Shown here: positions 16,699 to 21,041 of the stretch, piece after piece
How the letters are laid out: every line of letters starts with the position of its first letter
Numbering within the stretch: position 1 is the first letter of the stretch
Source: a candidate division TM6 bacterium GW2011_GWE2_42_60
Lineage (GTDB): Bacteria > Babelota > Babeliae > Babelales > Babelaceae
Assembly (NCBI GenBank): GCA_000996275.1
Contig: LCEG01000001.1
Span: forward strand, 186,001 to 250,000
Length of the DNA stretch: 64,000 nucleotides
Direction: 5' to 3'
Position numbers and translations under genes: made by a program
The notes under the pieces: generated by a model
What the model saw: the letters and a program-made list of their open reading frames with translations, nothing else
Database searches by the model: none
What the model was told of the DNA's origin: nothing

Positions 16699-19401
16699 AT
16701 GATTACACTTCCATTAAATGAAATTATTGGTTTTTTGGCAAGTCCAAAACTGCGGCTTATTGAAGCAGTTTTGTTTTTTGTACTTAAGCTATTCTTTATT
16801 TTGTGGTTATTACGCTATCGTTCCAAAAACTCAAAAAATAATCTATTTGATATTAAGGCGAGTAATATATTATTTGCTCTTTTAATCTCAGCTTCAGTTG
16901 TAGATGGTTATGTGGTATCTCTGACTTTAGACAACATAGGCTTTTTTAATATGACCGAGGCCCTTTATAATATTCTTAGCCGTCTTTGTTGGATTGCTCA
17001 GATTGCTTTTCACGTAGGGCTTTTATATTTTATCCGGCGATTATTACGTAAGTCTCTTCTGGAGGGATCTGCAAAAATTTTAACGGCGATGGGCGGGCTG
17101 TTGGTTGGCTTAGTTAGCTTGCAGTTTATACAGAATTATTGTTGGAGTGCTTCGAACGAACTTAAACTATGGCAAGTGTCTTACTTCTATATCTTGATAA
17201 TGGCCATTTTTACTGTGCTTGAAGCGTATTCAGGAGTTAAAAATACAAAGACGCCTCTTCTTTTGCGTATGCAGCTTAAAATGCTTCTGATTGCTTTTAT
17301 ATTGCCAATTTTCCTTATGAAGTTTTGTAATCTTTGGCTATTTATTCAAACCGATAGTCTTGTGATTTTATGGCAGGCGCTTTTTAGTATGGCGACTGTT
17401 CTTCTCATTGCCGCAACCTACTACAGCGCAACGCGCTTAGTCCGCATTCGCTTCCTCAATATCAAAAATAAATCACGTGAGCCGCTTAAATATAATGCTA
17501 TGGAGCTTATAAGCCCGCTCATTGATCAAATTCAACGTATTCGCGCAACGAATGAGTTCGGCTATGTTACGTGTTCATTTTTTACCCGAACGTTTGGTTG
17601 TGCAGAAGATCAGGTGAAATTGGTGATTTTCGATGACCCTTGTGACGATCATACCATGGCGTTGCAACAGAAGGTTAAGAAAGCACTTGATGCCGTGCCG
17701 CTCCTTGTTGATTTTCTTGATCAAGAGCAGTTGTTTGCACGTTCCGAGATTGAATTCTCTTGGTATCATGAAGAAGCGCTGATTTACGCAGAAGCGGTAC
17801 AATTCCTTAATTTAATAGATGCGGACCTTTTTGTTCCTTGCTTTGATCAGGGTCTTTTGGTCGGTTTTATCGTGGTAGAATCGCGGGATTCTGAAGTAAC
17901 CTGTTTTTCTCTTGAAGAACGGGGAATGTTAAAGATTTTTGCCAAAATGTTAGGCGCGGCTGTTCGTCAGGTGCGTCAGAAAGATTACCAAACTCTTTTG
18001 GGTGAAAAACGGCGTCTTCAGGATGATGCCCATTTCCGCCATTGTGAACTTGAACATCTGCGTGAAGGAATTTTTTCTTATACCCGTCGAGCCGTCGACC
18101 GGCAGATTGGTGTTCTTTTTTACCGACGGCGTAAATATCTTTTTGCCAATCGTGCATCTGAAATTCTTTTAGGTTGCGATCCAAATAGCCAGCGGGGGCA
18201 TCCGGTTGCTGAGGCACTTGCTAAGTTAGTTGATTATACCCTTCAGTCAAAACAATTTTCTTCGACGATAGTGACACTGCATCGTGACATGCAACTTGCT
18301 TTGACAACGTTTCCTGGTGAAAATGAGCATGAAGTAATTATCATTGCAACACGTCCTGAATTGTCTGATCTTATCGCGTTTCAGGAGAGTATGATTAAAG
18401 ATCCTTCGCAATGGGATTATCTTTTGTACCTCGAAACAACCGAAAAAGGACGTCGAATCAATGAGTTAATTCCTGGTGTAGGCGCAACGCTTGTACAACT
18501 TAAAATTACCCTCCTTCGTCTTGTCTTTGGACGAAGTTCCGTATTTTTGAACACGACGAGTGGAGATCGCAAAGCACTCGTACTTTTGCTGCATGAAGCG
18601 AGTTTACGTACACAATTATATACGTTATCGCTCAATGAACGGGAACATGGTCAAGAAGTTGCAGCCCGCATCTTTGGCCTATCGGCCCTTTTTTCTGAAG
18701 AAACGGGTGCAACGCCACTGTTGGTTCAGCTTGAAAAAGATGCAACGTTGATGATTGAAAATATTCAGTATCTTTCGGCCGAAACTCAAAAACGATTGGC
18801 AGAGTTTATACGGCTTGGTGCATTTAAACGTGTGGGAAGTTCTTTTTTAGTAGCGAGTGATGCTCGTATTATCTGTTCAAGTGACCGTTCACTCGAAGCT
18901 TTAGTGCAGGATGGACTTATTATTCCTGAATTGTATCAGATGCTTACGGCGACAAGCTTTACGATCCCACGACCTTCACAACTACCGTATGAAGAATTTT
19001 GTAGCACGGTTGACAGTATTGCACAGCTTTTCTTGACGACGGCTTCTTTGAAAAAAGTACTCGGTTTAACTGAACGCGAAAGAAAGCAGCTTTTGAAAGA
19101 AGATATTCCTTCTTTTGATCTTCTTAAAAAACGTGTCTATGGACTCTTGCATCTCAAAGCAGTATCACAGCAGGTTGAGCTTGAGGGTGAATTAGTAGAT
19201 GCCTATGATGAAGAGCTTAATCGGATGGTATTGATGGGTGCTCGGGCGCTTAAAGATCGGGAAACACTCGTCTATCTTTGGGATAAGTTTAAGTGTCAGG
19301 CAAAAATAGCCTCTATTTTAGGGGTGAATAAATCGTCGGTTAGTCGTCGTTGTAAAATGTTTGGAATTGAATCGATTTCAGTAAAGGGGCAAAAAGAATG
19401 A
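16699..19401 (+). CDS. 7TM-GAF-PAS-degenerate NtrC-like-Fis HTH regulator
   Basis: About 900 aa from the ATG at 16699 (GTG at 16690 possible). Seven hydrophobic segments span residues ~12-245. A GAF-like domain (~265-430), a helical linker and a PAS-like domain (~455-560) follow. Next comes a region aligning with NtrC-type AAA+ domains: ATLMIENIQYLS at the Walker B position, LAEFIRLGAFKRVGS, DARIICSSDRSLEALVQ and LIIPELYQML. The P-loop reads NTTSGDRKA rather than GESGTGKE, the DE of Walker B is EN, and GAFTGA is not recognisable, so ATP hydrolysis and sigma-54 contact are probably lost. Residues ~860-893 form a Fis-type HTH (AKIASILGVNKSSVSRR). Likely a membrane-bound one-component regulator. 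Its stop overlaps the transporter start (ATGA). Confidence 0.75.
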   Translation: MITLPLNEIIGFLASPKLRLIEAVLFFVLKLFFILWLLRYRSKNSKNNLFDIKASNILFALLISASVVDGYVVSLTLDNIGFFNMTEALYNILSRLCWIAQIAFHVGLLYFIRRLLRKSLLEGSAKILTAMGGLLVGLVSLQFIQNYCWSASNELKLWQVSYFYILIMAIFTVLEAYSGVKNTKTPLLLRMQLKMLLIAFILPIFLMKFCNLWLFIQTDSLVILWQALFSMATVLLIAATYYSATRLVRIRFLNIKNKSREPLKYNAMELISPLIDQIQRIRATNEFGYVTCSFFTRTFGCAEDQVKLVIFDDPCDDHTMALQQKVKKALDAVPLLVDFLDQEQLFARSEIEFSWYHEEALIYAEAVQFLNLIDADLFVPCFDQGLLVGFIVVESRDSEVTCFSLEERGMLKIFAKMLGAAVRQVRQKDYQTLLGEKRRLQDDAHFRHCELEHLREGIFSYTRRAVDRQIGVLFYRRRKYLFANRASEILLGCDPNSQRGHPVAEALAKLVDYTLQSKQFSSTIVTLHRDMQLALTTFPGENEHEVIIIATRPELSDLIAFQESMIKDPSQWDYLLYLETTEKGRRINELIPGVGATLVQLKITLLRLVFGRSSVFLNTTSGDRKALVLLLHEASLRTQLYTLSLNEREHGQEVAARIFGLSALFSEETGATPLLVQLEKDATLMIENIQYLSAETQKRLAEFIRLGAFKRVGSSFLVASDARIICSSDRSLEALVQDGLIIPELYQMLTATSFTIPRPSQLPYEEFCSTVDSIAQLFLTTASLKKVLGLTERERKQLLKEDIPSFDLLKKRVYGLLHLKAVSQQVELEGELVDAYDEELNRMVLMGARALKDRETLVYLWDKFKCQAKIASILGVNKSSVSRRCKMFGIESISVKGQKE

Positions 19402-21041
19402 TTGCTAGTCTTATTGCGTTTGCCGGGGCACTGGTCTTTGTCTGTTTTGCGATTGTAGTTCAGAGTTTTATTTCGATGGCAACGCCGGTAGGACCATGGA
19501 TTGAACCGATTGTTGCTCTTTTTATGCTTTTGGTGGTGAGGAGCGTGCTTCTTTTTTCAAAGCGTATTGAAGCTGCACAAGGTTCACGCGTTGCGTGCTT
19601 AGTAACGGTCGCTTCAGGGGTTGGTGGCGCGGTTGCAACAGCATTTGGATTTTCATTTCCAACACTCTATTTTCTTGATAAGACACTCTTTAATTCATGG
19701 ATGGCGTCTCCGTATCTTGTAGCATTTTTCGCTTTTGGTATTACTATTGTTTGCGGTGCGTTAGCATTTTTCTTGGTGCACTATCTTGAAGAAAAAACAT
19801 TGAATGACCCGGCGATGCCCTTCCCTATTGGGCAGATGGTTGGCCGTGTTCTTTCTGTTGCGCAAGAGATTAGACATTCGGTGATGTTGGTAATCGGCTT
19901 TGTGTCGACTTTTATTTTTTCGATGGTGCAGTGGATTTGGCAGCTGCTACCTCAAACAATCTCATTTTTTTCCGGCGCCACAATTTCTTTGTTCCGGCTT
20001 CCTGCTCTTGCTATTCAGACTAACTTAGTCTTAGTTTTTTTAGCAATTGGATTTATTGCAGGGTCATTGTTGGTTGTTCCATTGATTGTTGGTATTCTCT
20101 CAAAAATTATTCTTTTAGAACCGCTTCAAAAACTCTTTTTTCCTCAGATGCTTTTTAAAACATTTTTAATTGCATTTGCAGGGGGCATTATGTTGCAAGA
20201 GGCTCTCTTGAGTCTCTTGAAGTTACCACCGCTTGTTTTGGGCGGTATGCGCTGGGTAATCGCATGGTGGAAGCGTGATCGGACAGCAGAAAAAGGTGAT
20301 GCAACAACCGTAGATTCTGTAAAAGCAGGAATACGTTCATTTTGGTGGGTTGTTCTTGTCTTTGGGGTAGGGATCGCCTATTTTTCTTATTACGGTTTCT
20401 CGATTCCTTCACAATTTTATCTCTATCTTTTTACCATTGTTTGTGTGCAACAGGCGCTGGTGATTGGGGGGAAAGCGGGGATGGCTCCGATGGGGCGCTA
20501 TGCTACCTTTGTGATGCTTCCGGGGCTTTTATTATTTCATTATTCTCATACGCAAGCGATGATGGTTTCGTTGTTTGTCTGGTTGGTCGGTATGCTTACC
20601 GTCGATCTTTTCTTCGGGCGTGTTGCAGGGCGTATGGTAAAGATTGATCGACGATCAATTATTATGTTTCAAGCTATAGGGCTTGTTTTGAGTGCATTGC
20701 TGGTTGGACCAGTCTGTTGGCTTTTGATTAATGCTTTTGGACTTGATTCTCCTGAGCTTTGTGCACAACGCGCACAGGCACGTGCACTCTTGGTAACCGC
20801 TTGGCAGTTTGATCCGATAGTTTTGCTTTTGGGTGCGGCCTTTGGATTCATTCTACAACGCCTCAAAATTAATCCGATACTTGTTTTTACCGGATTGGTG
20901 ATTGCAGAACAGTTCTCGCTTTTATTAATTGCAGGTGGGGTTCTTGCCCTCTTGGTACGAGATCGTGCTGAATGGGAGCCGTTCTGGTCTGGTGTTTTTG
21001 CCGCCGGGTCGCTTGCGATGCTTATCAAAGTATTTGTCTAA
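19398..21041 (+). CDS. polytopic membrane protein, probable OPT-family-like transporter
   Basis: 547 aa with roughly 13-15 membrane segments. Features recalling OPT oligopeptide/metal-chelate transporters are PFPIGQMVGRVLSVAQE, KAGMAPMGRYATFVMLPG and the closing region with AEWEPFWSGVFAAGSLAML. It is shorter than most OPT proteins, so the assignment is tentative. It starts inside the stop of the 7TM regulator gene (4-nt overlap), so the two are co-translated. A sensor-transporter pair controlling nutrient uptake is a reasonable inference. Confidence 0.55.
   Translation: MIASLIAFAGALVFVCFAIVVQSFISMATPVGPWIEPIVALFMLLVVRSVLLFSKRIEAAQGSRVACLVTVASGVGGAVATAFGFSFPTLYFLDKTLFNSWMASPYLVAFFAFGITIVCGALAFFLVHYLEEKTLNDPAMPFPIGQMVGRVLSVAQEIRHSVMLVIGFVSTFIFSMVQWIWQLLPQTISFFSGATISLFRLPALAIQTNLVLVFLAIGFIAGSLLVVPLIVGILSKIILLEPLQKLFFPQMLFKTFLIAFAGGIMLQEALLSLLKLPPLVLGGMRWVIAWWKRDRTAEKGDATTVDSVKAGIRSFWWVVLVFGVGIAYFSYYGFSIPSQFYLYLFTIVCVQQALVIGGKAGMAPMGRYATFVMLPGLLLFHYSHTQAMMVSLFVWLVGMLTVDLFFGRVAGRMVKIDRRSIIMFQAIGLVLSALLVGPVCWLLINAFGLDSPELCAQRAQARALLVTAWQFDPIVLLLGAAFGFILQRLKINPILVFTGLVIAEQFSLLLIAGGVLALLVRDRAEWEPFWSGVFAAGSLAMLIKVFV

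Follow-up and report, generated by a model that had tools for sequence, protein, structure and literature searches.

The locus described here raises the question of what an NtrC-like regulator that has lost its ATPase motifs could be doing in the membrane of a bacterium without sigma-54, and whether the transporter gene that overlaps its stop codon is its partner. The window, a 64,000-nucleotide stretch (contig C1, 186001-250000) of a 1.14-Mb Babelota (Dependentiae/TM6) genome that is 93.6% complete, encodes a 900-aa 7TM-GAF-PAS-pseudoAAA-HTH regulator (REG; 16699..19401, + strand), for which an in-frame GTG at 16690 is a possible alternative start (16690-19401 +, 903 aa), and a putative OPT-family transporter of 547 aa (OPT; 19398..21041, + strand). 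An earlier note on this DNA had described both reading frames, the domain set of REG and the overlap of its stop with the transporter start, and these were broadly confirmed by our analysis: the REG TGA (19399-19401) and the OPT ATG (19398-19400) share an ATGA. With a probability of roughly 0.7, we interpret REG as a one-component regulator that is held in the membrane, has a dead ATPase domain, acts independently of sigma-54 and takes the role of NtrYX.

An AlphaFold2 model of REG, built from a 66-sequence alignment (mean pLDDT 87.1, pTM 0.54), begins with seven long helices and continues with a GAF-like domain, another long helix, a domain of PAS topology, an AAA+ domain and, at the C-terminus, a helical HTH. 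The seven helices (residues 16-47, 52-79, 87-116, 123-144, 151-181, 187-213 and 219-252) form a putative membrane domain with a GPCR-like fold (residues 14-252; 16738..17454 +), in line with the seven membrane helices proposed earlier, and family-average hydropathy agrees with them only broadly. Within the full-length model this part matched GPCR folds at Z 16-17.5, including 8z7j_R (Z 17.5, 240 residues, 4.5 A), values obtained from one predicted helical bundle, as a domain within the full chain, with a tool whose typical best Z is about 14 for helical models that have no clear match. A profile of the 7TM alignment found no match in the PDB at E ≤ 1. Bacterial signalling proteins are known to carry seven-helix sensor domains, as in the 7TMR-DISM and HisKA_7TM receptors; REG differs from these in that none of 52 REG N-termini gave a match to a 7TM receptor family of Pfam at E ≤ 0.1.

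The GAF-like domain (residues 258-428; 17470..17982 +) matched a phytochrome GAF in fold (2o9c; Z 12.8, 150 residues, 3.1 A), which bears out the GAF assignment, and its Pfam matches were weak (GAF_2 in 14/63 REG proteins at E ≤ 1, with the window protein below the cut-off). A long signalling helix (residues 429-466; 17983..18096 +) joins it to the PAS-topology domain (residues 467-552; 18097..18354 +). The PAS proposal stood in part: the strand-strand-helices-three-strands topology of the model fits, but there was no strong Pfam match, three PAS families each being found in 2/63 REG proteins at E ≤ 1. The structure-search list for the GAF-PAS model held no separate PAS entry, a profile of the GAF-PAS alignment had no PDB match at E ≤ 1, and the LOV protein YtvA, which may match another part of the chain, appeared at Foldseek rank 48. 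Three relatives of 795-798 aa from a single genus (g2; loci L077, L078 and L079) lack the PAS segment and keep all other parts.

The C-terminal half begins with a conserved family-specific segment (WDYLLYLETT..LIPG; residues 553-600, 18355..18498 +) followed by an NtrC-like AAA+ domain that has lost its ATPase motifs (residues 601-835; 18499..19203 +), the only domain that Pfam found confidently in REG. PF00158 matched above its cut-off (E = 1e-10, aa 615-755 of the GTG-numbered window protein) and was detected in 39/39 family members at E ≤ 0.01; a profile of the domain matched NtrC4 in the PDB (3dzd, E = 1.7e-23), and its modelled fold matched DmpR (Z 19.8, 232 residues, 4.7 A) and NtrX (Z 18.5). 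Brucella NtrX was the top Foldseek match of the REG model (E 5.8e-8). The NCBIfam models for TyrR (E to 1.2e-19) and NtrX likewise matched 39/39 members, and those for PspF and DhaR 38, at scores far below the model cut-offs in all three members whose tables were inspected. Walker A (GxxxxGK[ST]), Walker B (DE) and GAFTGA were each retained by none of the members in two alignments, A1 (0/39) and A2 (0/66). The former P-loop (residues 611-636; 18529..18606 +) has no GK[ST] and instead an aspartate, D623 (window 18565-18567), invariant in 66/66, while the acids of the former Walker B strand (residues 682-692; 18742..18774 +) are replaced by EN in the window protein, with KN and QN commonest across the family. 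The degraded Walker A, Walker B (EN) and GAFTGA read from the window were thus a family-wide trait.

A Fis-like helix-turn-helix (residues 854-890; 19258..19368 +) completes the chain. Here the earlier proposal held at the level of the family alignment, where the motif is clear, and of the model, where its helices are present, but Pfam recognised it weakly (HTH_50 at E = 0.098 in the window protein; HTH_8 in 2/39, best 2.7e-4). Residues V876, S879, R883 and R884 were kept in 39/39, in an alignment (A1) whose members were not selected by the HTH motif. Mean pairwise identity in A1 was highest in the HTH (64%) and next highest in the pre-AAA segment (54%), with 46% for the linker helix, 43% for the pseudo-AAA domain, 37% for PAS, 35% for GAF, 32% for the lid and 23% for the 7TM domain. 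Pfam detected neither a kinase nor a receiver domain (Response_reg) in REG of the window or in the 39 members, as the earlier note had stated.

That note had asked whether rpoN exists in the genome. The gene (PF04552) is absent from the window genome (0/1) and from 101/101 Babelota genomes, in a search that matched 4/14 control genomes, and our literature search found no paper joining Dependentiae with sigma-54 or Babelota with NtrC. The other PF00158 matches of the window genome are presumably ClpB-, ComM- and MoxR-like proteins, not bEBPs. Of the bEBP features, REG has the PF00158 AAA+ domain; GAFTGA, Walker A, Walker B and rpoN are all missing. Architecture, motif loss, an rpoN-less genome and phylum-wide conservation together uphold the membrane-anchored pseudo-NtrC regulator without sigma-54 that was first read from the window, and from the absence of rpoN alone we infer that REG works with sigma-70 polymerase.

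Precedents exist for parts of this arrangement. According to the account in PMC3162934, TyrR, DhaR and HupR are GAFTGA-defective, sigma-70-dependent members of the NtrC family, and Fusobacterium and Jannaschia, which lack rpoN, carry GAFTGA-altered homologues. These three regulators resemble REG in their NtrC-family AAA+ domain, defective GAFTGA and C-terminal HTH, but they are soluble, whereas REG has a 7TM domain and neither Walker motif. TyrR, DhaR and HupR retain the P-loop. ToxR and CadC are membrane one-component regulators in which an N-terminal DNA-binding domain is joined to a membrane sensor through one TM helix, and they differ from REG in having no NtrC-type AAA+ domain. ChiS also joins a DNA-binding domain to a membrane sensor, again with no NtrC-type AAA+ domain in the description drawn on here (PMC8092284). 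Within the literature searched, the full loss of both Walker motifs, the fusion to a predicted 7TM membrane sensor and the spread across a phylum appear to be new.

Babelota are bacteria that live as parasites within single-celled hosts. A query with alignment A1 matched 80/101 of their genomes, 13 of these through weak matches to another, NtrX-like protein, and REG itself is present in 67/101, with full-length reading frames in most of the 67. The NtrX-like protein (REC-AAA+-HTH, 425-479 aa where complete) occurs in 16/101 genomes, belonging to families f10, f11 and f17, and NtrX was the best NCBIfam model for the single Babelota representative checked. No genome has both REG and NtrX (0/101) and 18/101 have neither. 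HisKA was found in 17/101 genomes, comprising 14/16 NtrX genomes and 3/67 REG genomes, and the Fisher values calculated for the REG, NtrX and HisKA distributions ignore kinship; in the three REG genomes (G007, G088 and G099) the contigs that carry the domain measure 4.6-6.2 kb in the cases with a known length. The 13 kinases read from f10, f11 and f17 are NtrY-like, with HAMP, HisKA and HATPase in 5/5 scanned and NtrY_N, below cut-off, in 3/5. NtrX resembles REG in its model and fold matches and complements it in distribution; REG differs in that it lacks both a receiver domain and a partner kinase, its putative sensor being part of the same chain.

Several observations concern the NtrX-like proteins themselves. 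Judged by eye, they retain a P-loop-like motif, and the GAFTGA segment is missing (L140-L149, e.g. L145:2452-3756; f10, f11 and f17, in genomes without rpoN). Their gene neighbours we take to be mostly secG/mlaE/mlaF-like and MoxR-like, and the NtrY-like kinase genes sit elsewhere in the genome. One genome (G007) also encodes a REC-PAS-PAS-NtrC protein in which GESGTGKE and GAFTGA are both intact (L150:873-3050, contig C6). It was set aside as a likely contaminant (5.9-kb contig in a genome with 4% contamination) and left out of the NtrX count.

How REG and NtrYX came to exclude each other was considered on a midpoint-rooted, single-gene OPT tree of 40 rows, in which a 100/100 split sets off a side that holds the NtrX genomes, f4 and f18, which have neither system, and f15, which has REG. 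The tree allows few independent events, so that replacement of NtrYX by REG is something we infer from a distribution pattern in which 18/101 genomes have neither. A direct fusion of the 7TM-GAF-PAS sensor of a kinase with the output of its partner was rejected, since the kinases of f10, f11 and f17 are NtrY-like; the direct sensor donor of REG was therefore not found among them.

The genomic setting of REG was compared across 35 loci, 34 from relatives and one being the second copy of the window genome. Its usual home (21/35) is upstream of genes for a Xer recombinase and a PBP2-type transpeptidase, xer being the next tracked gene downstream on the same strand within 600 nt in those 21/35 loci and within 50 nt in 14 of them. 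In 21/35 loci the upstream side has a divergent nth-like gene, and Pfam recognised a tyrosine recombinase, a PBP transpeptidase and an HhH-GPD protein among these neighbours. The window genome has the xer-PBP2 pair and REG is not beside it: the two REG copies, 60% identical, are both outside this home, one upstream of OPT and the other upstream of a MATE transporter gene. Tandem REG copies occur at four loci (L051, L053, L056 and L060). A search for operators upstream of 67 REG genes found inverted repeats in excess of shuffled sequences only in the form of A/T runs. At one locus (L055) a frameshift or an assembly error divides the PBP2-type gene that follows REG into ORFs of 175 and 391 aa. 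The window also contains two similar ORFs of 139 aa (1464-1883 + and 39439-39858 -), which look HEPN-like to us, and a homologue of these stands beside a REG copy at another locus (L048, 3723-4151).

The transporter identity proposed earlier was partly sustained: the window protein scored 22.8 bits against PF03169, below the cut-off of 25.8, but 6/8 homologues scored above it, the other two having no match at E ≤ 0.01. The ATGA overlap would be consistent with a dedicated sensor-transporter unit in which REG controls uptake by OPT. An intrinsic-terminator-like hairpin (16347..16391 +; -22.3 kcal/mol, z -5.2) with a T-rich tail separates rsmA from REG, and sites at the REG-OPT junction were not above shuffles; the two genes are therefore likely to share one transcript. 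The consensus terminator scan, whose site count was not above shuffles, does not list this hairpin because its loop exceeds the length that the scan allows. OPT homologues occur in 41/50 genomes, however, and 27 genomes have both genes, which are adjacent only in the window genome. In 0/26 relatives with both was the pair found together, the very result that the earlier note had named as counting against it, and in three of the genomes (G001, G003 and G026) REG and OPT share a contig at distances of hundreds of kb. None of 20 OPT neighbourhoods contains REG, the genes there being presumably HIT, prfB and gmk-like, as named from sequence, and 14/41 OPT-bearing genomes have no REG match. Some REG loci stop close to contig ends, so that single adjacent cases could be missed. 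REG-OPT as a conserved unit was accordingly rejected, and a dedicated sensor-transporter unit is an unlikely reading even of the window genome, where OPT may be co-transcribed with REG or be its target. What survives of the original interpretation is the pseudo-NtrC membrane regulator, with Xer and PBP2 as its conserved partners.

Other explanations concern how REG itself would operate. A protease could free it from the membrane, leaving a soluble C-terminal part to regulate genes, and both a low-confidence hinge at residues 831-836, before the HTH in the model, and a gene that we take to be ftsH-like in the conserved neighbourhood (15/35 REG loci) would suit this. Conservation of GAF, long helix, PAS and pseudo-AAA as a single chain, with the pre-AAA segment second only to the HTH, argues against cleavage, and the nearness of ftsH may be chance; we regard this mechanism as improbable. 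Loss of every ATPase motif, and the failure of Pfam to detect the HTH in nearly all members, might instead mark REG as a relic undergoing decay or as a scaffold in the membrane that does not bind DNA, which is very improbable given full-length frames in most of the 67 genomes, retained tandem copies and an HTH that is the most conserved domain. That REG is still an NTP-driven activator, through an unrecognised site or an intact bEBP partner, would fit the AAA+ fold retained in the model and the invariant D623, but is extremely improbable where neither Walker motif is present, rpoN is absent from 101 genomes and the other PF00158 matches of the window genome are presumably not bEBPs.

Under the preferred reading of REG as an ATPase-dead, membrane-tethered one-component regulator, the GPCR-like 7TM domain, GAF and PAS would sense a signal, and the long helix and dead AAA+ domain would provide a scaffold for dimers or oligomers, not a motor. 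The HTH dimer would then bind operators near the membrane, and REG would repress or activate sigma-70-type promoters in the manner of TyrR, DhaR and HupR. Its probable targets in most Babelota are the REG-xer-PBP2 operon to which it belongs or envelope genes, and it would replace the NtrYX system kept by other families of the phylum. More tentatively, a GPCR-shaped 7TM domain with GAF and PAS, set on an ATPase-dead NtrX/TyrR-like output, might have replaced NtrYX in one deep branch of this sigma-54-less phylum, controlling from the membrane the genes for cell-wall synthesis on which the intracellular life cycle depends.

Five predicted regulators are given for Babela massiliensis in the account of PMC4378268. 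Regulators are very few in these intracellular parasites, and 67/101 genomes of the phylum have kept an NtrC-type activator that has lost both motor and sigma factor and is fused to a putative membrane receptor. REG would represent a natural case of a one-component membrane regulator taking the place of a two-component system, and it offers a concrete candidate for host sensing by Babelota parasites.
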